This document shows, one piece after another, positions 1 to 32,658 of a stretch of DNA of 33,379 bases. The position numbers and the translations under genes were made by a program. Every line of letters begins with the position of its first letter. Within the stretch, counting starts at the first letter, position 1. Origin of the DNA: a virus; IMG/VR virus record IMGVR_UViG_3300025120_000263, positions 1 through 33,379 of that record, one strand, 5' to 3'. A model generated the notes under the pieces. The model had not been told where the DNA came from. It saw only the letters and a list, made by a program, of their open reading frames with translations, and made no database searches.

Positions 1-653
1 ATTATAGTTTAAACTTTGTTAGAGCGAATTATAGTCAATTAAGATTTACTCCTCAAACAATGGGAACAACAAGCATTAGTCTTTGGTTTTTAACTGATAT
101 TGCAAATACAGGTAACTCTTCCAAAGGTCTATTAGTTGGTCATAATCTTCAAGTCCCTCAAAGCGGCATTAGTGTTAACGAAATAAGTGGCAACATAAGA
201 ATAGTATATACATCCAATTCAGCTACAAAACAATGGAATACAACAATACCTTTTGTAGTAAACCAATGGTATCATATTGTTATTACTCATAGTGGTGATA
301 ATTCCAATATTGTACAAGCGGCTATAAATGGAGCATCATTAGTGTCTCCAACATTTAACAACACTTTCACTACACCACCTATATTTGCCGCAGTAGGAAA
401 TCTTTGGGCTGCAAATCCTAATTTTGGTTTTGGCGGAAATATAGACGAATTTGCAATAATACCTTCAAGATTAAGTGATTCTCAAGTGTCAAGTATATAT
501 AATAGTGGCAAGCCAAATAGTTTGGAATCTTTTAATCCATCTATATGGTATAGATTTCAAGAGGGTTCTGGTACTTCACCTCAAAACTCTGGTTCAGCAT
601 TAGTAAACTCAACAATTACTTACCCTGGTACTTACGATACTAACGTACCTTAA
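1..653 (+). CDS. LamG-domain adhesin/tail-fibre protein, 3' end only
   Basis: The reading frame is open from position 3 with no stop, so the gene begins left of the window; the ATG at 60 lies inside the domain and is unlikely to be the real start. The visible protein is a laminin-G/concanavalin-like jelly roll: TSISLWF, a central NQWYHIVITH strand, then GGNIDEFAIIPSRLSDSQVSSIY, which is the classic closing pattern of LamG domains. A last segment, PSIWYRFQEGSGT, looks like the first strands of a second jelly roll that then stops. Such domains bind carbohydrate and in phages usually sit in tail fibres or surface adhesins. No signal peptide can be judged because the N-terminus is missing. The family call is good; its location on the virion is inferred. 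Confidence 0.75.
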   Translation, partial: YSLNFVRANYSQLRFTPQTMGTTSISLWFLTDIANTGNSSKGLLVGHNLQVPQSGISVNEISGNIRIVYTSNSATKQWNTTIPFVVNQWYHIVITHSGDNSNIVQAAINGASLVSPTFNNTFTTPPIFAAVGNLWAANPNFGFGGNIDEFAIIPSRLSDSQVSSIYNSGKPNSLESFNPSIWYRFQEGSGTSPQNSGSALVNSTITYPGTYDTNVP

Positions 654-18092: not shown

Positions 18093-18497
18093 ATGGAATT
18101 AAACGTAAGAAACCTTACAGAAAAAGATTATATTACACTAGTTAAATGGTGGAAAGAGTGGGGCTGGGATCCAGTGCCACAAGACATGTTACCTGACAAC
18201 GGAGCAGGAGGTGTTATGATTCAGCAAGGTAGTAAACCTATAATAGCAGGATTTTTGTTTTGGAGTAATTCAAATATAGTATGGTTTGACTGGATAATAT
18301 CGGATAAAAATGTTAGCAAACTAACTAGGGCTAAGTCTTTAATATACTTGATAGATGTTGTAGAAGGCATGGTCAAATCTGCTGGTAAAAAATACATAAT
18401 AACTATTAGTGACAATAAAAGTTTAATATCTACTTTTAAAAAGAAGAATTGGTATGTGGATGAAGATCCACTTAATAAAATAATTAAAAAAATATAA
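18093..18497 (+). CDS. GNAT-like acetyltransferase-fold protein
   Basis: This 134-residue protein has the order of a GNAT N-acetyltransferase: opening strand and helix (LNVRNLTEKDYITLVKWWKE), the phage-typical segment WGWDPVPQDMLPDNGAGGVM, antiparallel strands (KPIIAGFLFWSNSNIVWFDW), a central helix (KSLIYLIDVVEGMVKSAG), then KKYIITISDNKSLISTFKKKNW. The canonical acetyl-CoA loop (Q/RxxGxG/A) is not clear before the central helix (KNVSKLTRAKSLIY), so catalytic activity is uncertain. Phages often carry such a protein between tail and internal-virion genes, where it may modify a virion or host protein. The gene sits 10 bases after the nozzle gene and 2 bases before the next, all in one operon. 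Confidence 0.6.
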   Translation: MELNVRNLTEKDYITLVKWWKEWGWDPVPQDMLPDNGAGGVMIQQGSKPIIAGFLFWSNSNIVWFDWIISDKNVSKLTRAKSLIYLIDVVEGMVKSAGKKYIITISDNKSLISTFKKKNWYVDEDPLNKIIKKI

Positions 18498-19083: not shown

Positions 19084-20370
19084 ATGAGTTACAAAAACCC
19101 AACAGGACTAAGCACAGGCAGTAGTTTATCAACTATAATATCACAACAATTTGGTAAAGGACCGAACAGAGAAGAAGCTCAAAAAAAAGCTAAAACTACC
19201 GCTAATATAGCTTCGCTAGCACAGGGTGTTTTAAGTTCTATAACTCCAAAAAAAGTAGCTTTAAAAGATTTTACCGCTACACAAAAAAATAAACAACAAA
19301 ACTTATACAATGACATTGCTAGTTATGATTTAGGTTATAAAGATTTTGATAAACAGTCAGACACGTTTTTTCATAATCTAATTGATAAGTACAGTGAAAT
19401 ACAAGGACATTTAAATAATGGAACACTAGTAGACGAACAGTTAGGTAGGAAAGATTTGGCTAAAATAAACAACTTAGTAAATGTTTATGGAGATGCAATA
19501 CCTAGAATGCTTAAAATTAGCCAAGCTATTGAAAGAGCTTCTAAAGATCCAAACAGTCCTCAATTAAGTATTACAGGTCCACCAGTTGATCAAATGCAAA
19601 TAATAACTAAAATAACAAATGGTGAGAAAATAGATATTATACAAGAAGGAGATAGTATAATATTAAAAGATCCTGAAACAGGTACTATATTGAATGTTGC
19701 TGAATTTAATAAAGCTTTTAGTAATAATACAAATCCTTACTTGAAATATGAAGCTGACGTTTCAAAACCTTTAGACACGGCGTTTACTAGCTACATGAAA
19801 GATAAAGAAAATAATTTTACTTCTGCTTTTACTACTCCTGAAAAAATTAAAGATAGAAATGGCAAAGAGGTTGAAATAACTACAATGACTATACCCCAGC
19901 AAATATCTTTAAAAAAAGCTATGATAGGTGTAGATAATGAATCTACAGGCGTACCTGATGGTCAGTTTACAGCTTTAATAAATGAACAGGGAGAAAGCAT
20001 ATGGGAAGATATAATGGATGGTGGAAGAGGTTATGATGTTTTTAAAGATGATGATGGCTCTGCTTTAGAATGGTATGCCGGCAAAAACGGAGTTCCTGTT
20101 CCTGGGGATAAAGAGTTTCCTTTATACAAAAAGCAGTATGAAACTATGTTAGCTTATTTGTCTAATAAATCTCTACAAGACAATGCCGCTTCTGAGGGTA
20201 TAAAGTTGATAACTGAGAATGAAGTTTCTAAACCTAAGGATGATAATGAAAATGAAAGTCAATCCGAGAACCAACCTAAAACTCAAGAAGAATTTAACAA
20301 GCAGTGGAATAGCTTAAAACCTGGTGAAAAACTCACAGGTCCTAATGGAGTTGAATACGAAAAAAAATAA
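19084..20370 (+). CDS. Internal virion-type protein B
   Basis: This 428-residue, mainly helical protein is rich in Lys, Asn and Gln. A low-complexity start (SYKNPTGLSTGSSLSTIISQ) leads to helical regions around 30-150 (AQKKAKTTANIASLAQGVLS, TATQKNKQQNLYNDIASYDL). A beta-containing part at about 165-215 (QMQIITKITNGEKIDIIQEG) follows, then a charged tail ending in NGVEYEKK with an acidic low-complexity stretch (DDNENESQSENQPK). It lies between the Ala/Gln-rich core protein and the 3217-residue gene. I see no lysozyme or protease motif, and the family is not recognised. Co-ejection with its neighbours is the likely role. Confidence 0.55.
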   Translation: MSYKNPTGLSTGSSLSTIISQQFGKGPNREEAQKKAKTTANIASLAQGVLSSITPKKVALKDFTATQKNKQQNLYNDIASYDLGYKDFDKQSDTFFHNLIDKYSEIQGHLNNGTLVDEQLGRKDLAKINNLVNVYGDAIPRMLKISQAIERASKDPNSPQLSITGPPVDQMQIITKITNGEKIDIIQEGDSIILKDPETGTILNVAEFNKAFSNNTNPYLKYEADVSKPLDTAFTSYMKDKENNFTSAFTTPEKIKDRNGKEVEITTMTIPQQISLKKAMIGVDNESTGVPDGQFTALINEQGESIWEDIMDGGRGYDVFKDDDGSALEWYAGKNGVPVPGDKEFPLYKKQYETMLAYLSNKSLQDNAASEGIKLITENEVSKPKDDNENESQSENQPKTQEEFNKQWNSLKPGEKLTGPNGVEYEKK

Positions 20371-20379
20371 AATATTATT

Positions 20380-23300
20380 ATGGCTGAATTTATAGCACCA
20401 ACTGATTCTATAATTGTAAAAGAAAACGATGAAAATGTTGACAACTTTACACCGCCTGCTGATGCTGAGCCTGTAAAGTCTACAGCAATTGGACCAGCTG
20501 ACTCTGGACCAAGAACTGTGGAAAAGTCAACAGTCGATGCGGAGGATGCTGCAGCTGCAAAGACGGAGAAGGAAGTAGCAAAATTAGATGGAGATGCGAA
20601 ATTAATATCTTCAGGTTCAGATTCAGAATCGAAATCAAAGCCTAAATCTTTATATGAGAAAAATAAAGATAGAGAAGAAAAGTACAAGCAAGATTTAGCT
20701 ATAAAACTAGAAAACATACCTGATGAAGTCACTTCTTGGAATGATAGTTATTCAACTGGTGATGATAATCTTGATGAAGTAATAAGAACTAGTATAGAAG
20801 AAAGACCAAATCAATCAGAGCCTAGAACTAAAGATACAATGATAAAGTATGTATTGAGCTCTAGTTATGATTCAAATAGTAAAATTGCAGAATATTTACC
20901 CTTAGAGGATAAAGATCTAAGTGTAGTTAATGAAGAATTAGTAGAGAACAATAGTATAAGATCTATCTTACAACAAGGAGAAAGTGATGTTGATAGTTAC
21001 AAAGACGCTAAGATAGTAGGTATAATACCTAGGTTTTCAGATGAAGAAGTTATTACAAGGGAAACTAAAATATTAGAAGATAGTGATGTTAACTTGTCAC
21101 CAACAACAACGTCTACAGGCGCAGAAATAAGAAAGCCAGTAGAAGAAGAAATTATTGAAACAAAAAGAGATATAATTACTGGAAATCAGAGTGGAACTAG
21201 AATAGCTTGGCAAATGCCAGATGGAAAAGGAGGATATAAAATAAAATATACTAATGCTCCTACAGGTACAATACTCGGTGGTGAATTTGAAGTTGAAGAC
21301 TTCACGATAGAATCTGATAAAGAGAAACATCAAGATTGGCAAAATAAAGTTGATCTTAGAGTTTTTGTTAATGAAGTTGAAGACGAGTTATTTGATAGTG
21401 ATGACGATCTTTATCGTAGTGAAGATGGAAGTATAGATATAAACAGAGGTAAAGACTCTGCTATGGATAATTTTGCAAAAAATTACTATGAAGATATAAA
21501 TTTTTCTAATCAACTATATGCTCCTAGAGATAAGAATAATGTAAAAAGCTCTTCAGCTGGATTTAATAATTCTAGAATGGCTGATTTTGGATTTTATTAT
21601 GACGAAGATTCAAATAGAATATACAAAGATATAGTTATAGATGAAAAATTTAAACCAAAAATTACTGATGAAAATGTTTATTTTGATCTAGATCAAGAAG
21701 GAGTTCAAGAAAATTTAAAAGCTGGTAATTTAGCTGGGTGGCTAAAAGACAACGCTGGTGTAGCTGAACTTACTTCTGCTTATGAAGAGGTGTCTAAAAT
21801 AAACCTTGAAACACAAAGAAACTTAGAAAGACAACAAGTAAAAATACATGCCATAAAAGGTGAGATAACAGCTATACAGCCGGAGCTAGAAGTAAATACT
21901 AGTTTTGTAGAGGTTTTTAAAAGAACTGGGAGTGACAACGATAAGACATTGAATAACCAGTTTGAAGAGCTAAATAAAAATTTAACTTATGAAGCTTCTG
22001 AAATATCTAAGCTTTACAAAATGCACCAAGAAGGTAAAGATATAGATATAAAAGAATACAATAAAAGATACAAGAAGTTTGAAGCTGATAAAGCTAAGTT
22101 CAATAAAATGGTAGAAGTTTTAGATCTACCTATGACTGAAGAAAACGGATGGAGTGAAAAATTAATAGGTGGTAAAAGAACTAGAAACGATAAGCAAAGA
22201 GGTTATACTGTTTTAAAGCATAAAGAGTCTGGATTAGAAATAATATACGGGTATCAAAATCAAGCTCAAAAAGGTTCTATATTTTTTGATGAGTCACGAA
22301 TGGGCGATAATGCTTTATCCCCTAAAGACTATATTAAAAAAGAAAAAGAATTACAATACGACTTTGCTCAAAAAACAATAGATAACATCACTGAAATAGA
22401 ATATTTAGGAAACTTAATAGTTGATGCAGGTTTAAACATTGATAAAAGATTCGCCACTGTTTACAAGGCTAATGTCAAAAAAGCACTAATAGAAGAAGGA
22501 GTAGCATTAAACAACGCTACCGTAATGGACTATTCAAAAAGAACTTTAAATCAGTTTACTAGTAATTACTTTAGAGCTATGAGTGGTTTTACTAATACTT
22601 TAGTAAGCACTATAGCTAATACTGGAAGTTTAGTAGGTTTCTACGATGAAAAAGACATGAAAGTTTTTGCCAGAGGATTTAAAGACGTGCAAAGAGGATT
22701 TGATAGTGCTATGAAATTTGTGTCTGTTGAAGAAAATAATACATTTTCTAAAGCTTTTGCAAAGACTTTTTATGGTAAGGCACATTCAGCTATGATAGAT
22801 ATGGTCTTTGATGTTTTAGTAACTAAAGGTATGGGTAAAGGCGGTTCTGTTAATAAAGCCGCTAAGATGTTAAAAGGAGCTGAAAAAGTTAGTAGAATAA
22901 AAAAAGCTAAAACTTTATTTTCTACTTTAATGAAAAGTCCAGCAGCGTTAGCTAACAAAGGTTTTGAAAAAGTCGTTAGTCAAACTATGGATATGATGAC
23001 TAATCCTATGTTTTTGAAAATTGCAGATGGAACTCAAAGACAACTAGATGATCCTAGGTTTAAAGATATGAGCAGTGGTCAAAAGTATTTATATACTATG
23101 GGTACTTCTTTTATCATGGGTAAGTTAGAACAAATAGGTGTAGACTTTGCTACGGAAAGAGGAGGTCAACAAGTTGTTAACCATATACTTCAAAAAGCTT
23201 TTCAAAGAGGAGGTGATAATATAGCGAGAAATGCTGATAATATAATAATGGATTATTTAAAGCGTGGGGTAATAGGAACTACTAAAACTCTTTCTGGTTT

Positions 23301-26300
23301 TGGTTTTAAAATGACTGGTGAAGGTGCTACTGAGGTAGCTCAAGATGTATTTGCATTTGGAGCTGAAGAGTTAGTTAATTACTTAAAAGGTTATAATGGT
23401 AAAAAAAGTGGTGCTGCAGCTACTGGTTTTTATAATCCTGACTTTTTCTCAAAAGAAAATTTAGAAAGTTTAATTGAAACTTTTGCTTTAGGTGCAATAG
23501 CAACTGGACCAGTAGCGGCTATAGGTACAGCTACAGATATTAAAGAAAACTACGGTCCTCAGTCTATAAGTGGAGTTGGTGACAACCAGTTCAGTGTGTT
23601 TTACGACGTGTTTAGTGAGAAAGAAAACATAAACTCTTACGTTGAACAAATGGAGATTAAACTCGATGAAGCTATTGATGGTTTAGATAGTCAAGAAGAA
23701 ATAAACGAAATTAGAGCAGAATACGACAAACAAATAAATAGCGCTAAAGAAATAAGCTCTAAAATGCAAGAGGTTAGAAATGCTGGAGGTAATAACTTAA
23801 GTTTGCAAGATCAAAAGAAGGCTTATCAATTGTTAGATGAATTAGAAAGACTTGAAGCTTCTATGGAGGTTGATGGTAAAAAAGCTAACAAAGATTTAAA
23901 TGCTGCTAAGCTTGAGCAGATACAAGATATTAGAACTCAATTAAATGATCTTAGTTTTAAAGCAGAGCAAAATGTTAAAGATTCTTTAGAAAGAGGCAAG
24001 AAAGTAAGTGGTGATGCTACATTAACTCTTATAAATCCAGATCAAGATATAGAAGCTCAATTAGTAGAGCAAGGTGTAGATCCTGAATCTGAACAGGGTT
24101 TAAAAGTTATAAATAATAAAGGTGGAGCCACTATAATACAAGACGAAAACGGTAATGATAAAATATTCGTAGCAGCTGATAGTGATGTAGAAACTTTAAT
24201 AAACCATGAAGAAAGACATAATTTTTGGAAAGAAGCCTTAAGTAGAGACCCTGAGTCAGCCGGTAGAGTTGTAAAAATTATAAGAGATTATTTAGAAAAT
24301 TCACCTGGAAATGAAGAAGTATTAAAAGATATAAATAGAATATACGAAGCTTACGAAAATGATCCTGATTACACTAAAGAAATGTTAGACGAAGAGTTTA
24401 TAATGATATTTGGTGATAAATTAAATGATAAAAATATTGATGCTAGAGTAAAAGATGATAGAAGTTTTAAAGATAAATTCAAATTTGCAGCTAAGGAACT
24501 ATATAGAAATGCTTTTAATGTTAAATTTAAAGAACCTAAAAATATTGATGATGTTTTTGATTTATTAAGAAATCAAAGAAAAGCTATAGAAAAAGGTAAG
24601 AAATCTAAAAGATTAACAAACTTTACTGAGAAAGGTTTTAAAGATACTAAAACAGAACAGACTAAACCAGCAGATACTAAAGTAGTAGAGAGTAAAAAAG
24701 ATACTCCTTTACAAGCTATAAATAAGCTTATACCTAGTGATATAGCAACTAAACAAGATTTTGAAAACTTTATTAATGATCGTAGATTATTTCCAGAGCT
24801 TTACAAGTCTACATTTAGTATAGAAGAAGGAAGAGATTTAGGTATGGAAATGACACAAGATGGTGTTATAAGTAATTATGTAAAAAGTAGATCTATTGGG
24901 GATGAGTATTTAGGAGCTATAGAGTCTGTAAGAAATAGAATTACTAATTTTGATCCTAATGCTAAGAGAGCTGATGGATCTACAGTTGGTACAGAAGGTT
25001 TTGGTGAATTTATATTTGCTAATACTAATTTTGGCAAAATGGATTCTAAGAAAAAACTAGCTAAAGAAAATGAAAAAAGACAAAGAGAAGAGTCTACAGA
25101 TACAGAAGCTGCTAAGCAATTAACTACTCAAGATTCAGACCCTGTAGTAGAATCTAAAAAAGAAAGAGTAACACCTAGGTCTAAGATAAAAAAAGCAGCA
25201 CCTGAGTTTGTAACTAAAGAATTAGAAGCTGATATAGAAAAAGCTATTACAGGTATAATTAAAAGCTCTTCACTAGATGTTAAGTCTAAAGAATTTAGAC
25301 CATTCATAAAAGGAGTTATAGAAGGTGAGTTAACTAACAAAATAAAAAAAGAACTAGGTATAGGTAAAGATTATGACTTCTTAATAAAAAAATTAGGACC
25401 TAAGTTAAAAGATATAATGCCTATTGATTACTTTGTTAAATTAGAATCTCAAACAAAACCTGCAGATAGGTTATTCACAAATCCACCTAGAAGATTAACC
25501 AAGCAAGCTGATATAGATAAAGCAATGAGAAATGATAAAATCTATGTTGAGAAAGCAGCTCAAGGTGCTAACATCTATACTTTTAAAGATTTTAATCCTA
25601 AAAAACTAGTTGATTATATATTAGCTCCATCTATAAATCCTAAAACAGGTAAGAAAAGTGGATTAAAAGGTACTAGAAAAACATCTACAGCTGCTAGTAT
25701 AGCTTTTGAACTAGGAAAAGACATGATACCTTCTGTCATGAAAAAACTAGGTATAGATACTTCTCAAGCAGCAGAAATTAGTAAAAAAATACAAAGAGAG
25801 CCTAGAGCTTTGTTTAGAAAACAAACATCTTTAACAGGTCAACAAGTAGCTGAACTTATTAAGGCAGCTCAATTTCCTAATAAACAAGCTTTAGCTAGAG
25901 AATTAGGCTTTAGCGCTGACGCTATTAATGAAAAATCTAGAAAAGGTCTTCAAGATCAAATGCTTGAAGCAGCTGAATTAGGGTTTTTAGATTTAACAGT
26001 TATTGAAGCTGGTAAAATGGGTAGCGGAGGCAAAGCTACTTATTACGGCAACATTGTAGATGGTAAATTTGTAAAAGATATTGCATCAAGTAAAAAGTAT
26101 ATAAAAAGAACTAATGGCGAGTATGTATTATTTGAACAGAAGAAAGAAGGTAAATTTAAAAGAGTAAATCTAGAGCAAGTAAATGAAAATACTGACTATA
26201 TTGCTAAGCAAGGTCGTTTGTATTATGGAAAAAAAGATCCTGCTTACCAAACCTTAATAAGAGCTGCTGGCAAATCTCCATTTAAAAAAGGATTTAACAG

Positions 26301-29300
26301 AATAGGTTTACCTAAAGGTGGTAAGATTAATGCTGCTTGGGCTAAATCTAAAAAAGCTCAATCAGATTTAAATATGAACATATTAGATTATGTAGTAAAT
26401 CAATTATCAGATGCGGTAAACGTAGGTAAAGATGGAGTCAAGATGTCTATGGACGTTGCTGGTATGATAATTATACAAAGCTATCAAGGTACTTCTGGCT
26501 TAATAAAAGCTGCGGCGCCATTTAAATATATTTCAAAGAATTTTGAATATGGAAATAAAAAAGATGGTGATAAAAAATATAGAGAAGAACATAATCCACC
26601 AGCATCTGTAGTTGGAGCTAGTATAATGGTTGCTATTAAAAATAATACAGCCAAAGAAGTTATGAAAGATATTAGAAATAACTTTTACCAAACTGTGCTA
26701 TCTAAAAAAGCAGACTCAATGCTAGACATGGCTAAGCTAGATGCTACACTACCTAAGGGAACTTACATTGGAGACAATCCTATTATAAGACTAGCTAAAG
26801 CAGGTATAAACTTAAACGATATTATAAACGTTGAAACTGGCAAAAGTATGGCAGATGAGTTTGGCTTAGGAGTAGCTACAACAGTTAATACTTTTCCAGG
26901 TGTTATATCTTTACAAAATGATTTAATATCTGAAGTTGTTATAGGTAGTAAGGATTTAAAAGCTGCTAAAAAACAATTAGACGTTTATACTAAATTCCCT
27001 AACAATAATCAACCTAGTTTAGCTAAGACACAAAATGATGCTACAAAATCTTCTAATACTACTTTAAAAGAATCTAAAGTATTAAGTGTGGATGAAGACT
27101 TAAATATTTATGAGTTGTTAAGTAAGGCCGCTGGCGTTGATCAAGCTTTAAAATTAGCTAATTCTTTAGATCAACCTACTAAAAAGATCAGAGTGTTTGA
27201 TTTTGATGATACTTTAGCCACAAGTAAAAATAAAGTATATGCTACAAAAGGTGATCAAAGAATAGAAATGAATGCTGAGAAGTTTGCTACTGATGCAGCC
27301 CAAATGATAGAAGATGGATGGGCAATGGATTTTAGTGACTTTGATAATGTTACTGATGGTGCTCGTGGCCCTTTATTTAAAGTTGCACAAACTATAAAAG
27401 AAGCTAGAGGTAATGAAGATTTATTTGTATTAACAGCAAGAGGTCCTAATGCTGAAACAGCTATATATGATTTTTTAAAAGCTGAAGGTTTAGAATTTAA
27501 AAGAGAAAACATAGTTGGATTAGGCAAATCACCTGGTGAAGCTAAAGCAAACTGGATGATCGACAAGGCTGCAGAAGGTTACAATGACTTTTATTTTGCT
27601 GATGATGCTTATCAAAACGTTAAAGCAGTTCAAGATGTTATGTCTGTTATTGATGTTAAATCTAAAATACAACAAGCTAAAGTTAAAGAATCAAAAAAGT
27701 TAAGTTTAGAATTTAATGATATAATAGAAAAAACCACTGGAGTAGATGCATTCAAAGAATATTCAGCTGCTAAAGCTAAAACTATAGGAGCTAGCAAAGG
27801 TAAGTTTAAATTTTTTATACCTTACTCAGCAGAAGACTTTTTAGGTCTTATATATCCTACTTTATCTAAAGGCAGCGTAGGTGATGCTCAGATGGCTTGG
27901 TATAAACAAAATTTAATAGATCCATATACTAAAGCACAGGAAAATTTATCTACAGCTAGATTAAATTTAATGAACGATTTTAAACAATTAAAAAAATCTT
28001 TAAATGTTCCAAAAAAACTAAGACAAAAGAACAGCTCTGGTTTTACAAATGAACAAGCAGTTAGAGTTCATCTATTTACTAGTATGGGCTATGAAGTTCC
28101 AGGTCTTTCTAAAAGAGATTTAAAAGAGTTGAATGATACTGTAGAAAACGACTCTCAGTTGTTAGAGTTTTCTAATCAGATATTAACTATAAATAAAGGA
28201 GATGGCTATGCCCAACCTGATGCTAATTGGCTAGTAGGAACTATAACTACTGATTTAATAAATTTAATAAATAATGAAAAAAGAAGTAAGTATTTAGCTA
28301 ACTGGCAAGAGCGAATAGACGCTATATATTCTAATGAAAATTTAAATAAATTAGAATCTATATATGGCACTACATATGTAGAAGCACTTAAGAACATGTT
28401 AACTAGAATGAGAACTGGTAAAAACAGACTAACTAGTGGTAGTAAAATAGAAAATCAAATACTAGATTATATAAATGGTTCTATAGGTACTATTATGTTT
28501 TTTAATACTAGGTCTGCTGTTCTTCAAACTATATCTTCTATTAACTTTGTTAATTGGAGCTTTAATAATCCTTATAAGGCTGGTAAAGCTTTTGCTAATC
28601 AAAAACAATATTGGACTGATTTTAAAGAGTTAATGAATTCAGATTTCTTAGTAGATAGACGTAATGGATTAAAACTAAACATATCTGAATCTGAAATAGC
28701 TGACGCAGCTTCAACAAGTAATAATAAAGCTAAAGCTGCTTTAAACTGGTTGTTGTCTAAAGGCTTTTTACCTACTCAATATGCTGATAGTTTTGCTATA
28801 GCTTCTGGTGGTGCTACTTTTTTCCGTAATAGAATAAGTGATTTAGTAAGTAAAGGAATGTCTGAAGCCGATGCTAAGAAACAGGCTATGATAGAATTTA
28901 GACAAATAGCTGAAGAATCTCAACAGTCCTCTGATCCTAGTAGAATATCGCAGCAGCAGTCTAGCAATGTAGGTAGGTTAATATTAGCTTTTGCTAACAC
29001 CCCTATGCAATACGCTAGAATACAAAAAAGAGCTATACAGGATTTAGTGAATGGTAGAGGAGACGCTAAGTCTAATATTAGTAGAGTAGTTTATTATGGA
29101 TTTGTTCAAAATGTAATATTCAATGCTTTACAACAAGCCGTATTTGCTTTAGGTTTTGGTGATGACGATGAAGAAGATGAAGCTAAAAACAAGAAATACT
29201 TAAACGTAGCTAATGGTATGTTAGACTCTTTATTAAGAGGGCTTGGTATTGGAGGCGCTGCATTGTCTGTGGCTAAAAACTTTTTAATGGATATTTACGA

Positions 29301-30033
29301 AAGATCAGGAAGAGATCGACCGGAGTATGTAGATTCTGTATGGGAAGTAACTAGGTTTTCACCACCTATATACTCTAAGTTATCTAAACTAAAACAAGCT
29401 GGTTGGCAGTTTGATTCTAAAAAACGTAGAGAATTAATATATGAAAGAGGTTTTTCATTAGATAATCCAGCGTACGAAGCAGCTGCTAAAGTTGTATCAG
29501 CTACTACTAACATTCCTCTTGATAGAGTTATGTATAAGATAAAAAACATTGAAGGAGCTTTAGACGAGGACAATGAAATATGGCAGAGAATAGCTATGAT
29601 GGGTGGTTGGCCTAAATGGCAACTAGAAGATCCTAAAACACCAGCTATGCTTACTCCTGAAGAAAAGACTGAGAAGAAAGCCAACGTTAAAATAGAAAAC
29701 TATAAGAAAGCTAAAGGATCGAAAGACTATGACACTATTAAAAAATTAACTTCTGATCAGCAAATTAAAATGCTAAAAAGTTTAGGATTTGGAGATTACA
29801 CTATTAAAAATGCAAAATCAGAGCAAGCTAAAATAGATTTAATAATAGCTAAGAATAGTGGTAAAAAGATAAAAATAGATAAAGAAGCTATTAGAAAAGA
29901 TAAGTTTAAAAAATTAAGTAAAGAAGAACAAGTAAGAAAACTAGATAGCTTAGGATTAAGCAAAGCAGAAATAAGTGCTTTAAAATATGAAAATGATAGA
30001 GTTGAAAAAATGCTCGAATTAATGAAAAAATAA
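20380..30033 (+). CDS. Giant multidomain virion protein with zincin and HAD domains
   Basis: The product has 3217 residues. Residues 1-350 are acidic and low in complexity. Helical regions follow to about 950, then Gly/Ala-rich hydrophobic segments at about 970-1055 (FALGAIATGPVAAIG) that could touch membranes. A zincin follows: HEERH at 1276-1280, with a likely third ligand in DEEFIMIFGD (E1338/E1339). Residues about 1500-1560 (RNRITNFDPNAKRADGS, EGFGEFIFANT) and EEHNPPAS (2069-2076) are distinctive but unassigned. A HAD phosphatase domain spans about 2270-2430 with DFDDT (2274-2278), LTARG (2351-2355) and FADDA (2406-2410). From about 2708, the motifs NTRSAVLQT, QQSSDPSRISQQQSS and FANTPMQYARIQ are of the type seen in large polyvalent phage proteins. 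Two helical repeats end the chain. It is probably packaged and ejected with DNA; its enzymatic roles are inferred. Confidence 0.8.
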   Translation: MAEFIAPTDSIIVKENDENVDNFTPPADAEPVKSTAIGPADSGPRTVEKSTVDAEDAAAAKTEKEVAKLDGDAKLISSGSDSESKSKPKSLYEKNKDREEKYKQDLAIKLENIPDEVTSWNDSYSTGDDNLDEVIRTSIEERPNQSEPRTKDTMIKYVLSSSYDSNSKIAEYLPLEDKDLSVVNEELVENNSIRSILQQGESDVDSYKDAKIVGIIPRFSDEEVITRETKILEDSDVNLSPTTTSTGAEIRKPVEEEIIETKRDIITGNQSGTRIAWQMPDGKGGYKIKYTNAPTGTILGGEFEVEDFTIESDKEKHQDWQNKVDLRVFVNEVEDELFDSDDDLYRSEDGSIDINRGKDSAMDNFAKNYYEDINFSNQLYAPRDKNNVKSSSAGFNNSRMADFGFYYDEDSNRIYKDIVIDEKFKPKITDENVYFDLDQEGVQENLKAGNLAGWLKDNAGVAELTSAYEEVSKINLETQRNLERQQVKIHAIKGEITAIQPELEVNTSFVEVFKRTGSDNDKTLNNQFEELNKNLTYEASEISKLYKMHQEGKDIDIKEYNKRYKKFEADKAKFNKMVEVLDLPMTEENGWSEKLIGGKRTRNDKQRGYTVLKHKESGLEIIYGYQNQAQKGSIFFDESRMGDNALSPKDYIKKEKELQYDFAQKTIDNITEIEYLGNLIVDAGLNIDKRFATVYKANVKKALIEEGVALNNATVMDYSKRTLNQFTSNYFRAMSGFTNTLVSTIANTGSLVGFYDEKDMKVFARGFKDVQRGFDSAMKFVSVEENNTFSKAFAKTFYGKAHSAMIDMVFDVLVTKGMGKGGSVNKAAKMLKGAEKVSRIKKAKTLFSTLMKSPAALANKGFEKVVSQTMDMMTNPMFLKIADGTQRQLDDPRFKDMSSGQKYLYTMGTSFIMGKLEQIGVDFATERGGQQVVNHILQKAFQRGGDNIARNADNIIMDYLKRGVIGTTKTLSGFGFKMTGEGATEVAQDVFAFGAEELVNYLKGYNGKKSGAAATGFYNPDFFSKENLESLIETFALGAIATGPVAAIGTATDIKENYGPQSISGVGDNQFSVFYDVFSEKENINSYVEQMEIKLDEAIDGLDSQEEINEIRAEYDKQINSAKEISSKMQEVRNAGGNNLSLQDQKKAYQLLDELERLEASMEVDGKKANKDLNAAKLEQIQDIRTQLNDLSFKAEQNVKDSLERGKKVSGDATLTLINPDQDIEAQLVEQGVDPESEQGLKVINNKGGATIIQDENGNDKIFVAADSDVETLINHEERHNFWKEALSRDPESAGRVVKIIRDYLENSPGNEEVLKDINRIYEAYENDPDYTKEMLDEEFIMIFGDKLNDKNIDARVKDDRSFKDKFKFAAKELYRNAFNVKFKEPKNIDDVFDLLRNQRKAIEKGKKSKRLTNFTEKGFKDTKTEQTKPADTKVVESKKDTPLQAINKLIPSDIATKQDFENFINDRRLFPELYKSTFSIEEGRDLGMEMTQDGVISNYVKSRSIGDEYLGAIESVRNRITNFDPNAKRADGSTVGTEGFGEFIFANTNFGKMDSKKKLAKENEKRQREESTDTEAAKQLTTQDSDPVVESKKERVTPRSKIKKAAPEFVTKELEADIEKAITGIIKSSSLDVKSKEFRPFIKGVIEGELTNKIKKELGIGKDYDFLIKKLGPKLKDIMPIDYFVKLESQTKPADRLFTNPPRRLTKQADIDKAMRNDKIYVEKAAQGANIYTFKDFNPKKLVDYILAPSINPKTGKKSGLKGTRKTSTAASIAFELGKDMIPSVMKKLGIDTSQAAEISKKIQREPRALFRKQTSLTGQQVAELIKAAQFPNKQALARELGFSADAINEKSRKGLQDQMLEAAELGFLDLTVIEAGKMGSGGKATYYGNIVDGKFVKDIASSKKYIKRTNGEYVLFEQKKEGKFKRVNLEQVNENTDYIAKQGRLYYGKKDPAYQTLIRAAGKSPFKKGFNRIGLPKGGKINAAWAKSKKAQSDLNMNILDYVVNQLSDAVNVGKDGVKMSMDVAGMIIIQSYQGTSGLIKAAAPFKYISKNFEYGNKKDGDKKYREEHNPPASVVGASIMVAIKNNTAKEVMKDIRNNFYQTVLSKKADSMLDMAKLDATLPKGTYIGDNPIIRLAKAGINLNDIINVETGKSMADEFGLGVATTVNTFPGVISLQNDLISEVVIGSKDLKAAKKQLDVYTKFPNNNQPSLAKTQNDATKSSNTTLKESKVLSVDEDLNIYELLSKAAGVDQALKLANSLDQPTKKIRVFDFDDTLATSKNKVYATKGDQRIEMNAEKFATDAAQMIEDGWAMDFSDFDNVTDGARGPLFKVAQTIKEARGNEDLFVLTARGPNAETAIYDFLKAEGLEFKRENIVGLGKSPGEAKANWMIDKAAEGYNDFYFADDAYQNVKAVQDVMSVIDVKSKIQQAKVKESKKLSLEFNDIIEKTTGVDAFKEYSAAKAKTIGASKGKFKFFIPYSAEDFLGLIYPTLSKGSVGDAQMAWYKQNLIDPYTKAQENLSTARLNLMNDFKQLKKSLNVPKKLRQKNSSGFTNEQAVRVHLFTSMGYEVPGLSKRDLKELNDTVENDSQLLEFSNQILTINKGDGYAQPDANWLVGTITTDLINLINNEKRSKYLANWQERIDAIYSNENLNKLESIYGTTYVEALKNMLTRMRTGKNRLTSGSKIENQILDYINGSIGTIMFFNTRSAVLQTISSINFVNWSFNNPYKAGKAFANQKQYWTDFKELMNSDFLVDRRNGLKLNISESEIADAASTSNNKAKAALNWLLSKGFLPTQYADSFAIASGGATFFRNRISDLVSKGMSEADAKKQAMIEFRQIAEESQQSSDPSRISQQQSSNVGRLILAFANTPMQYARIQKRAIQDLVNGRGDAKSNISRVVYYGFVQNVIFNALQQAVFALGFGDDDEEDEAKNKKYLNVANGMLDSLLRGLGIGGAALSVAKNFLMDIYERSGRDRPEYVDSVWEVTRFSPPIYSKLSKLKQAGWQFDSKKRRELIYERGFSLDNPAYEAAAKVVSATTNIPLDRVMYKIKNIEGALDEDNEIWQRIAMMGGWPKWQLEDPKTPAMLTPEEKTEKKANVKIENYKKAKGSKDYDTIKKLTSDQQIKMLKSLGFGDYTIKNAKSEQAKIDLIIAKNSGKKIKIDKEAIRKDKFKKLSKEEQVRKLDSLGLSKAEISALKYENDRVEKMLELMKK

Positions 30034-30038
30034 ATATT

Positions 30039-30518
30039 ATGGCAGGATACAGGAAAGACATGGAAAAAATGGGTGCAGCTATGGGTAAGATTAAAAATCC
30101 TATACCTAAGATTAAAAATCCTCCACCTCAATTTAATCCTGTAAGAAGAGATGCAACATATGTAAAACCCAATTTAAACATTGACATGGGTTTAACATCT
30201 ATTAATTCTCCTTCTAACATCAATAAAAGATCTGACGCAGAGGAAAAGAGACTTGCTTCAAGACTAATTTCTAAAAACCCATCTCCCATAACTACTAATA
30301 AACCTATAAGTCTTAAGGAAATGGGAATTAAAAATTACAAATATCCTGAGAGTGGTGCTATTAAAATGACTGCCTCTCCTCATGAATATTTTTTAGGTGG
30401 TGGAATGGCTAAAGGAGGTTTTAACTTATCTAAAAGCTTAGCTGGAAAAGTAATTAGTAAAGCTAAACCTATTTTAAAAAATGTAGCTGCAGACTTTGGA
30501 ATAGATCAAGCACTATAA
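30039..30518 (+). CDS. Small basic virion-associated protein, unknown
   Basis: The 159-residue protein starts 5 bases after the giant gene and is the last of the rightward block. It has a flexible, Pro/Lys/Asn-rich N-terminal two-thirds with a duplicated unit (KIKNPIP, KIKNPPP; residues about 17-30). The C-terminal part contains a Gly-rich FLGGGMAKGG (about 119-128) followed by an amphipathic helix (LSKSLAGKVISKAKPILKNV). The Gly-rich hinge plus amphipathic helix could contact membranes, in keeping with co-ejected proteins, but this is a guess. No family is recognised. The stop TAA forms the first base of an inverted repeat, and a strong terminator follows. Confidence 0.6.
   Translation: MAGYRKDMEKMGAAMGKIKNPIPKIKNPPPQFNPVRRDATYVKPNLNIDMGLTSINSPSNINKRSDAEEKRLASRLISKNPSPITTNKPISLKEMGIKNYKYPESGAIKMTASPHEYFLGGGMAKGGFNLSKSLAGKVISKAKPILKNVAADFGIDQAL
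30086..30122 (+). repeat. Direct repeat within a coding gene
   Basis: TAAGATTAAAAATCCT occurs at 30086-30101 and again at 30107-30122, in frame (period 21 bases), giving the repeated peptide KIKNP. A simple in-frame tandem duplication explains it. Confidence 0.8.
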
Positions 30519-30643: not shown

Positions 30644-30799
30644 TCATATTTTAATAGTTATACCTATTGACACTATAAAAGCGCCGCTTGCTATCGCAAG
30701 TGTATTGGGATTAAAATCTAGCTTTTGTTTATGCCAGATCATGTTGGTACCAGCAAAAGTCATCATGCCAATACCGCCTATTACAGCTAATCGTCTCAT
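30644..30799 (-). CDS. Small two-helix membrane protein, 51 aa
   Basis: The start overlaps the reductase stop as ATGA, a classical translational-coupling arrangement. The protein begins MRRLAVIGGIGMMTFAGTNM, then a short polar loop (WHKQKLDFNPN) and a second hydrophobic stretch (TLAIASGAFIVSIGITIKI). That gives two likely membrane helices (about 4-21 and 34-50) with a basic start. Small two-helix proteins in phages include holin-like proteins and inner-membrane factors, and its coupling to a nucleotide-metabolism gene is unusual for a holin. No family is recognised. The overlap and coherent hydrophobic pattern make it likely real. Confidence 0.6.
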   Translation of the reverse strand: MRRLAVIGGIGMMTFAGTNMIWHKQKLDFNPNTLAIASGAFIVSIGITIKI

Positions 30800-32658
30800 T
30801 TAATTTCACAATTATCACCTGCACAAGCTAACTCCCCTGCAAGATCTGTTTCATCTTCTGTTTCTATAATCTTACTAAGATCAATATCTTTAAGATGAGT
30901 CATAGCCATATCGTAATTTACTTTACTTATATCTTCAAATGGTGCTTGAGTATAGGTACCGCCATCATAAGGTAGTACAGACAAACCATTATAATGATCT
31001 CTGTTTTCCCACATCCATTTACCCGCTTGATCCCACTCTTCTTGTTTTAAGCTAACAGTAGCTGAAACGTTATGAGTATTAGATCCTTTTCTGTGACCAG
31101 GCTTTACCCACTCTGTGGCAACTTTCTTTATACGCTCAAGTAAATCAAATGGTGATTCATCTCTTAATATAGAACCTTCAGGAGCTTTTTGTGGTATACT
31201 AATTACAGCAGTATCATGAGGTCTAAAAAATTCATCCTCAACTAATTCAGGGTGGTTGTTAGATAAATACTTATACATAGATTCGTTTTTACCAACTCTA
31301 ATCCTACGCGTATAATAATCAGCGTGCCATGCATGAATACCAGATGAAGTTCCTAATGCCAGAGATGTCGTCCCAGCAGGCTTCACGGTCGTGCATCTTG
31401 CTGCTGGATTAATACCAATAGCTTTAGCTGTCTTTGCATTTTCTCTTTTTACTATATTTGCAGCGGCCTTCATATCCAACGGCAGCACAGCGGCACTCGC
31501 GATCCCTGTCATTGATACACCGATAAGCGCGTCCTTCTCTGTCGTATCTCTCCATACATCTCTTAAATAATGAAAGTCAGTGTAACCAGCTTGCAATGTA
31601 CCTACGAAGCTAGCATGCTTAACTCTTTCGTTTAAATCTTCTTGTGATTCAATATCACTAGCATTTACTTCACACAAGTTACAAAACTGAAAAGGTCTTA
31701 ATGCTATTTCACAACAAGGGTTTGTGCCCCAGTCTTTATCATTGTTAAGATATATACCAGGTTCGCCTGACCCTGATAGCTCAACACGTTTCCAAAGATC
31801 CATAAAAAACTCTTGTGTTACTTTATGTCTCATAAGAACAGCTGAATTATTAGCTCTACCTCTTTGTGGATTTGTTTCCCACCAGCTACCTGATTTACAA
31901 CTAATCATCTCGCTATCTTCAGCAGAAAATAAACTAATTAAAGCAGCTCTACGTATACCACCAGCTAAAACTGAATCAGCTATATGACAAACTATATCAT
32001 GAGCCTCAACAGTTGTTAATGGTGTACCATCATCCTTAGCATCGAATATACCTTTAATTTTAAGTATACACTCTTTTAATGGTTGAGGTCCCGGTGCTTT
32101 ACCACCTGATGTAACTAATTGAGCTCCTTTAGCTCTAATATCAGAATAATCAAACTCTACAGTAGAACTCCTCTTATCGCCCATGTAAGATTTCATAAGA
32201 ACTTTAATTGCATCAGCCCAACCTTCAATACTATCTCCAATTAAAAACCTTCTAGTTCTTTTACTGTAAGGCTGATTAACTGGCGGCATCTGTTTTACGT
32301 GGTGATTCTGTACGGAGTATCCAACACCTGTGCCACCAAGCAGTAAGAACATGGTTTCGTGAAAGCTATCAATATGGTCAATTGGTAGATAAGCACAATT
32401 ATAAACACGATTAGGACTAATCTCAATAGGTTTACCTCCGAACTGTAGCGAGCGCATGCTAGGTAAAATTTTCTTTTCATATACTAATTTATAAGCTTCA
32501 TTTATTCTTTCTGAAAGCTCTGGATATTTTTTAATATGCATTGCTTTATTTCTATCTACTAGTTCTATCCAAGTTTCTCTACGATTTAACTCAGGCACGA
32601 ACTTTGCGTACTTCATGTACACTGTTATATCACTTAGTATTTTGTTCGATAACTCCAT
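30796..32658 (-). CDS. nrdJ: Adenosylcobalamin-dependent ribonucleotide reductase (class II)
   Basis: This 620-residue enzyme reduces ribonucleotides to deoxynucleotides using coenzyme B12, so it needs no oxygen. It resembles the monomeric RTPR type. C88 in RVYNCAYLP and C326 in FCNLCEVN form the reducible pair. C315 in NPCCEI is the thiyl cysteine with E317 beside it, and the C315-C326 spacing of 11 equals that of C408-C419 in the Lactobacillus enzyme. The C-terminal CAGDNC (C612, C617) is the shuttle pair, like CxxxxC in RTPR. FLLLGGTGVGYSVQ and PAGTTSLALGTSSGIHAWHA are further family motifs. It is shorter than the 739-residue Lactobacillus protein. NPCGEI is usual; here the Gly is Cys. It overlaps the upstream gene by 29 bases. 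Confidence 0.92.
   Translation of the reverse strand: MELSNKILSDITVYMKYAKFVPELNRRETWIELVDRNKAMHIKKYPELSERINEAYKLVYEKKILPSMRSLQFGGKPIEISPNRVYNCAYLPIDHIDSFHETMFLLLGGTGVGYSVQNHHVKQMPPVNQPYSKRTRRFLIGDSIEGWADAIKVLMKSYMGDKRSSTVEFDYSDIRAKGAQLVTSGGKAPGPQPLKECILKIKGIFDAKDDGTPLTTVEAHDIVCHIADSVLAGGIRRAALISLFSAEDSEMISCKSGSWWETNPQRGRANNSAVLMRHKVTQEFFMDLWKRVELSGSGEPGIYLNNDKDWGTNPCCEIALRPFQFCNLCEVNASDIESQEDLNERVKHASFVGTLQAGYTDFHYLRDVWRDTTEKDALIGVSMTGIASAAVLPLDMKAAANIVKRENAKTAKAIGINPAARCTTVKPAGTTSLALGTSSGIHAWHADYYTRRIRVGKNESMYKYLSNNHPELVEDEFFRPHDTAVISIPQKAPEGSILRDESPFDLLERIKKVATEWVKPGHRKGSNTHNVSATVSLKQEEWDQAGKWMWENRDHYNGLSVLPYDGGTYTQAPFEDISKVNYDMAMTHLKDIDLSKIIETEDETDLAGELACAGDNCEIK

Follow-up and report, generated by a model that had tools for sequence, protein, structure and literature searches.

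What a single phage gene that fills 29% of a contig might carry into an infection is the question raised by IMGVR_UViG_3300025120_000263, a 33,379-base virus record of IMG/VR, which is a fragment and was analyzed over its full length (hereafter, the window). The initial annotation had noted one giant gene covering about 30% of the window, and the open reading frame (20380–30033 on the plus strand, 3217 amino acids) is indeed uninterrupted. It is the last gene of a late series that runs from terminase, portal, capsid, and tail proteins through products of 134, 189, and 428 amino acids to the giant, which follows two smaller candidate ejection proteins:

18093–18497, plus strand: small gene in the same place as in ctfjg026, elemovirus, and phi38:1, with phmmer homologs and a match to PHROG_17252
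18500–19069, plus strand: 189-aa protein, candidate first ejection/channel protein, in the position of phi38:1 gp99 (annotated as structural)
19084–20370, plus strand: 428-aa protein, candidate second ejection protein, in the position of phi38:1 gp100 (annotated as structural)
20380–30033, plus strand: giant modular protein of 3217 aa, encoded by a single uninterrupted open reading frame

The capsid protein of the window shares 50% identity with that of Podoviridae sp. ctfjg026, 45% with that of Maribacter phage Panino, 41–42% with those of Flavobacterium elemoviruses, and 34% with that of Cellulophaga phage phi38:1, a member of the family Pervagoviridae according to its record. The product of the small gene matches proteins of ctfjg026, elemovirus (gp21), and phi38:1 (gp98) in phmmer searches (E 7e-24 to 1e-5); the ctfjg026 homolog is annotated as acetyltransferase-like. 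In phi38:1 and elemovirus, the last long gene of the equivalent operon is annotated as structural (gp101 and gp18, respectively). The host is probably a flavobacterium, because one relative was found in a metagenome bin of Flavobacteriaceae.

Relatives of the giant were collected by scanning viral contigs with its conserved parts; the C-terminal core retrieved 116 contigs and the HAD domain 250, and the best 80 of each set were kept. They yielded 129 distinct near-full giants of about 1.9–3.5 thousand residues (nearly all at least 2.1 thousand), some of which end at contig edges. Although the giant is found on more than 100 contigs of marine viruses, the window protein has no Pfam model: no family matched its full 3217 residues, PHROGs recognized only the HAD domain (PHROG_415), and searches of the isolate phages in the phage collection gave no match (DNA level, tblastn). 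The giants form a mosaic family for which the databases have no model; their marine carriers are probably phages of Flavobacteriia. At 118 of the 129 loci, a homolog of the 189-aa gene precedes the giant gene by no more than 2.6 kb, and sequence homologs of the 428-aa protein occur at 15 of them (the window itself is included in both counts).

Several observations concern single loci or the flanks of the operon. At one locus (L041:3181-12025), the giant gene appears as two open reading frames (1978 and 968 aa) with an identical stretch of ~31 residues at the junction; either a segment was duplicated in tandem here or the assembly is wrong. Just 3' of the giant in the window lies a 159-aa gene (30039–30518); of the 129 relatives, L125 alone has a homolog of it downstream of the giant. 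Directly past the late operon, on the opposite strand, lies a gene that resembles a ribonucleotide reductase by its motifs (30796–32658, minus strand; judged by eye), and the fragment at the 5' end of the window (3–653) has, also by eye, the look of a LamG/lectin-type tail fiber domain. A search of the window for MuF_C gave no match, and its control was silent as well.

Apart from its linkers, the giant can be divided as follows:

20380–22629, plus strand: N-terminal 750 residues, variable; poorly conserved and without a Pfam match
23467–23526, plus strand: lone hydrophobic segment, residues 1030–1049, from a hydropathy scan
24070–24492, plus strand: zincin core, residues 1231–1371, with H1276, E1277, H1280, and the third ligand E1339
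24697–25122, plus strand: sigma-70 region-2-like domain, residues 1440–1581, from weak sigma matches of family profiles, with the window copy tied in via relatives
25177–25809, plus strand: separate domain, residues 1600–1810, mostly confident in AF2 and up to 47% identical to relatives
25834–27063, plus strand: exchangeable EEH module, residues 1819–2228, with conserved Glu and His and a pLDDT mostly above 90
27142–27681, plus strand: HAD-superfamily phosphatase cassette, residues 2255–2434, from PHROG_415, motifs, and Foldseek
27730–29709, plus strand: conserved C-terminal core, residues 2451–3110, from family identity; all-alpha in AF2
29767–30030, plus strand: C-terminal tail, residues 3130–3217, with two short helical repeats, from sequence and AF2

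The first 400 residues of the giant are acidic (87 Asp/Glu versus 50 Lys/Arg). The “membrane-like Gly/Ala segments” of the initial annotation were overstated, as residues 1030–1049 alone pass a simple hydropathy cut-off. The best conserved part of the giant is the C-terminal core (44–89% identity across the family), whose profile had no match in the PDB. This region had been described as polyvalent-type; it is a conserved, all-helical domain, but the Pfam LPD models had no match in the window protein. The last 90 residues contain two similar helical repeats (LKSLGFGDYTIKNAKSE and LDSLGLSKAEISALKYE), which are predicted with high confidence.

The zincin claimed at the outset is present. The HEERH motif of the window (residues 1276–1280) aligns with the HExxH motifs of its relatives, and H1276, E1277, H1280, and the putative third ligand E1339 are invariant in the 42 relatives aligned. 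A single HExxH occurs in 116 of the 129 giants, and the other 13 have none; two giants (L008 and L011) show a decayed version, EELFH. Of the Pfam families, Peptidase_M78 matched the largest number of members, although weakly (12 of 42; best E 7e-4), and the top PDB matches of the zincin profile were zinc proteases (E 0.2–0.4, none significant alone), with IrrE further down. Each of these two sets of matches is weak alone, but together they are consistent with a zincin. Serpin matches obtained with the first zincin alignment against the PDB were rejected as chance.

The HAD phosphatase had been reported to be intact, which agrees with its motifs (DFDDTL at residue 2274, VLTAR, and FADD), with the match of the window giant to PHROG_415, a phage polynucleotide kinase family (E 2e-5), and with the acid-phosphatase fold of its predicted structure, for which the best PDB folds are class C acid phosphatases (Foldseek probability 0.96; 3pct). 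The window giant thereby shows the hallmarks of the superfamily (DxDxT, the Thr/Ser motif, the acidic motif IV, and a Rossmann-like fold), and the motifs are intact in 104 of 107 relatives. The only PDB match of the HAD profile was an unrelated synthetase and was discarded. The HAD domain is a common but optional cassette, because only 35 of the 57 giants chosen by their C-terminal core alone possess it; it is cleanly absent from about 22 relatives, in which the piece between two linker motifs is simply missing. The co-occurrence of zincin and HAD on one late-operon giant was correctly recognized, but HAD is not a fixed partner of the zincin. The original domain map was incomplete: it lacked the sigma-region-2-like domain as well as the EEH module and the KFSK/ESK linkers. 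Eight relatives have insertions in the HAD region, either of ~120 residues ahead of the final portion of the profile match (L158, L159, L160, L135, and L167) or of ~120–200 residues between motif I and the rest, where a HAD cap domain usually sits (L172, L168, and L047).

A domain downstream of the zincin bears a weak but recurrent likeness to region 2 of sigma-70 factors, which is fairly probable for the family and rather tentative, at slightly below even chances, for the window copy. Sigma70_r2 matched 7 of 67 relatives (best E 6e-4), more than any other Pfam family did, sigma families lead among the PHROGs (best E 1e-5), and two separate subfamily profiles had a sigma factor as their best PDB match (E 0.003 and 0.075); the region-2-like reading of one relative (L019) is YDPSKGLEFSTYVNSVIPKRA. 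When whole records were searched, Sigma70_r2 matched the giant itself in 3 of 19, below the cut-off. The window copy is tied to this family via three relatives (L052, L054, and L085) that are 42–45% identical to it and were found by a profile built without the window-type subfamily; the profile of the window-type subfamily had no sigma match. Profile-profile comparison with the sigma factors of Escherichia coli gave low probabilities (6–16%), and a Foldseek search of a 1028-residue model against the PDB returned two sigma factors among 71 matches, none of them significant.

A free-standing sigma-70-type factor of ~250 aa (MKKYN...FSTSQQASGV...DLIQEGS) is encoded in 17 of 19 related viral records (e.g., L181-L198). 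Most of these factors score above the Pfam cut-off; the window does not extend far enough to reveal one of its own. Derivation of the sigma-like domain from the phages' free sigma factor was considered and rejected, as the latter has no match to the giants.

The EEH module is named after E2069, E2070, and H2071, which are followed by NPPAS; EEH is almost invariant, a PAS motif comes after it, and the Glu and His are kept in at least 90% of the sequences of A5, A6, and A15. The module has no PDB match by sequence profile or by fold; the Foldseek search of the 1028-residue model against the PDB found nothing significant there either, only chance matches to large helical proteins. Among viral models, Foldseek identified one related protein of an uncultured virus (E 1e-13), which is named UDP-N-acetylglucosamine kinase.

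The modules are separated by linkers that carry variants of a short motif:

24682–24699, plus strand: VVESKK (1435–1440), in or at the edge of the low-confidence linker 1424–1438
25144–25161, plus strand: VVESKK (1589–1594), inside the low-confidence linker 1568–1596
25810–25821, plus strand: LFRK (1811–1814), a homology breakpoint that aligns with KFSK of relatives, within the low-confidence linker 1807–1815
27064–27078, plus strand: LKESK (2229–2233), before HAD, the equivalent of VKFSK in relatives
27682–27699, plus strand: VKESKK (2435–2440), after HAD, the equivalent of KFSK in relatives, adjoining the low-confidence segment 2427–2434

All three motif sites covered by the first AF2 model lie within or border on segments whose pLDDT is below 50, and VKESKK after HAD adjoins such a segment in the second model. 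The repeat of VVESKK within the window is not significant by estimate, but the family-wide count is: KFSK occurs 108 times in the 129 giants (10 expected; 5–21 for its permutations), and no other tetrapeptide is as frequent once the HAD and C-terminal cores are set aside. The remaining proteins of these contigs show no enrichment (2 seen versus 5.3 expected). The sites are non-homologous linkers, which follow the zincin, precede the EEH module, and flank HAD on both sides. A K[FY]S-type motif is lacking in the zones counted of 34 of the 129 giants, and the window has only the ESK and LFRK variants. Homology to individual relatives changes at these borders. One of them (L101) is 52% identical to the window over residues 1428–1812 and 28% over 2026–2257; another (L152) is 56% identical over 1808–2260 and has no further match in 1090–1808. 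As judged from sequence comparison and predicted structures, the middle of the giant is a mosaic of modules bordered by a short motif in putatively flexible linkers.

The most likely role of the giant is ejection together with the DNA, as suggested by gene order and synteny; phi38:1, elemovirus, and ctfjg026 arrange these genes in the same way. This assignment rests on position, because the giant has no detectable sequence homology to its counterparts in phi38:1, elemovirus, and ctfjg026. In the favored reading, which is probably correct, the giant is the last and largest ejection protein (N4-vRNAP-like or T7 gp16-like) of a short-tailed phage and carries exchangeable cargo. The presence of a lone hydrophobic segment speaks against this reading. 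We infer its location in the virion, its delivery to the host, and every biochemical activity ascribed to it here. The protein would be stored in the head, pass through the tail behind the two smaller ejection proteins, and refold in the host; by analogy with N4, DEV, and crassviruses, the two smaller proteins would build a path through the envelope, with the giant following. The invariant helical C-terminal core would probably serve packaging or the ejection machine that spans the envelope, and the middle may serve as a cargo bay whose modules are exchanged between phages at flexible linkers marked K-[FE]-S-K. The giant could bring a zincin protease, a HAD phosphatase, and a sigma-region-2-like domain into the host at once. 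The zincin may cleave proteins of the host or the giant that carries it, as has been suggested in both forms for polyvalent proteins (PMC5512222), and the HAD domain, presumably of the nucleotide/polynucleotide 3'-phosphatase type, may repair or remove phosphate ends on nucleic acids or nucleotides. The sigma-like domain might dock on or hold the host RNA polymerase. The presence of a free sigma factor in 17 of 19 relatives is consistent with a dependence on the host polymerase; the model of T7-like RNA polymerases (PF00940) was silent in 20 records, as was its control.

The linkers also bear on alternative accounts. If the giant were a self-processing polyprotein, its zincin would cut the K-[FE]-S-K linkers, either inside the head or once in the host, and thereby release three separate effectors: the HAD domain, the EEH module, and the sigma-like domain. 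This is unlikely, although the enrichment of KFSK is restricted to the giants, the motif recurs at several non-homologous linkers in predicted flexible segments, and autoprocessing by zincins has been proposed for polyvalent proteins (PMC5512222). Giants without HExxH and giants without the motif both occur, the two members with a decayed EELFH still keep KFSK, and the vRNAP of N4, which also has HExxH, is packaged unprocessed (PMC5512222). Somewhat less doubtful, but still on the improbable side, is that KFSK has no role in the protein and represents a recombination joint or an inherited spacer for module swaps. The clean presence or absence of HAD between copies of the motif agrees with such a joint, as does the enrichment of homology breakpoints within 20 residues of the motif, which is 9-fold for the whole protein but only 1.9-fold for the payload zone; the former value stems mainly from the borders of HAD and of the C-terminal core, and the breakpoint counts are not independent. 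By contrast, the DNA behind the motif varies at all site classes, with AGT or TCT for serine and AAG or AAA for lysine. Because the two serine codon families are unrelated and both occur at every site class, it is the peptide rather than a DNA word that seems to be kept, which favors selection on the peptide and fits self-processing as well. A bias toward AAG at the first lysine of KFSK was discounted as codon context, as lysine before phenylalanine is encoded by AAG half of the time anyway.

It is less likely still that the giant is a purely structural ejection protein, a channel or motor like gp16 of T7, in which the enzyme folds are vestiges that do nothing inside the host. Conservation is highest in the helical C-terminal core, and zincin and HAD are each absent from some members, but where present they have kept their catalytic residues (in 104 of 107 HAD domains, and as an invariant HExxH plus Glu in 42 zincins), which points to selection for activity. 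An ejection protein with exchangeable cargo remains the preferred reading. The most far-reaching version, a virion-delivered polyprotein with its own protease and with borders marked by the same peptide, which is cut after ejection into a kit of effectors including a sigma-like factor that redirects the host RNA polymerase before phage gene expression, is very improbable. The KFSK linkers make the old proposal of zincin-processed polyvalent proteins directly testable at predicted sites, and the sigma-like domain, if it is one, would offer a new explanation for the onset of transcription in a phage that packages no polymerase.

The closest positional counterparts of the giant are gp101 of phi38:1, gp18 of elemovirus, and the giant of ctfjg026, which share its location at the end of the late operon. 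The giants of elemovirus and ctfjg026 have HExxH like that of the window but lack the HAD motif, and the C-terminal core profile had no match in the giants of ctfjg026, elemovirus, and Panino. The syntenic giant of ctfjg026 (L004:741-12320; 3859 aa) has two HExxH motifs (at 1615 and 2500) and no HAD motif. The HAD domain itself shares motifs and core fold with T4 Pnkp-type 3'-phosphatases (PHROG_415) and class C acid phosphatases; it differs from them in being fused into a giant late protein, with no kinase domain seen.

The vRNAP of N4, an ejected protein of ~3500 residues, contains HExxH and is helical in its C-terminal part (PMC12633501). Like the giant, gp50 of N4 and gp71 of DEV (~3400–3500 aa) are encoded by the third of three genes for ejection proteins (PMC12633501, PMC10925440), and N4 gp50 shares with it a HExxH domain and a large helical C-terminal part. 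The giant differs from N4 gp50 by its HAD and sigma-like domains; a T7-like RNA polymerase domain was not found (in a search whose control was silent), nor was N4 gp50 matched in the PDB by sequence or fold. The crassvirus cargo proteins gp45–gp50 are large virion proteins of Bacteroidota phages that have been linked to early transcription (PMC10172136). They comprise RNA polymerase subunits and channel proteins, whereas the giant has no such motif: a DxDxD scan of the window protein found no DxDGD, and the sole match was an acidic run, DSDDD, at residue 339.

Polyvalent proteins, as described by Iyer et al. 2017 (PMC5512222), resemble the giant in combining unrelated enzymatic domains, including a zincin, on a long polypeptide encoded beside virion genes. 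The giant has at least two unrelated biochemical domains (zincin and HAD) and is likewise encoded next to virion genes; for catalogued polyvalent domains such as metallopeptidases, the window protein has no Pfam match, and a weak M78-like match is present in 12 of 42 relatives. A sigma domain, the HAD superfamily, and motif-marked linkers are absent from the text of that paper. The giant is probably a large, multi-domain ejection or polyvalent protein of a known type, which is distinguished by its sigma-like domain and its motif-marked linkers, and its family provides a natural series of module swaps for learning which cargo podoviruses bring into Bacteroidota.
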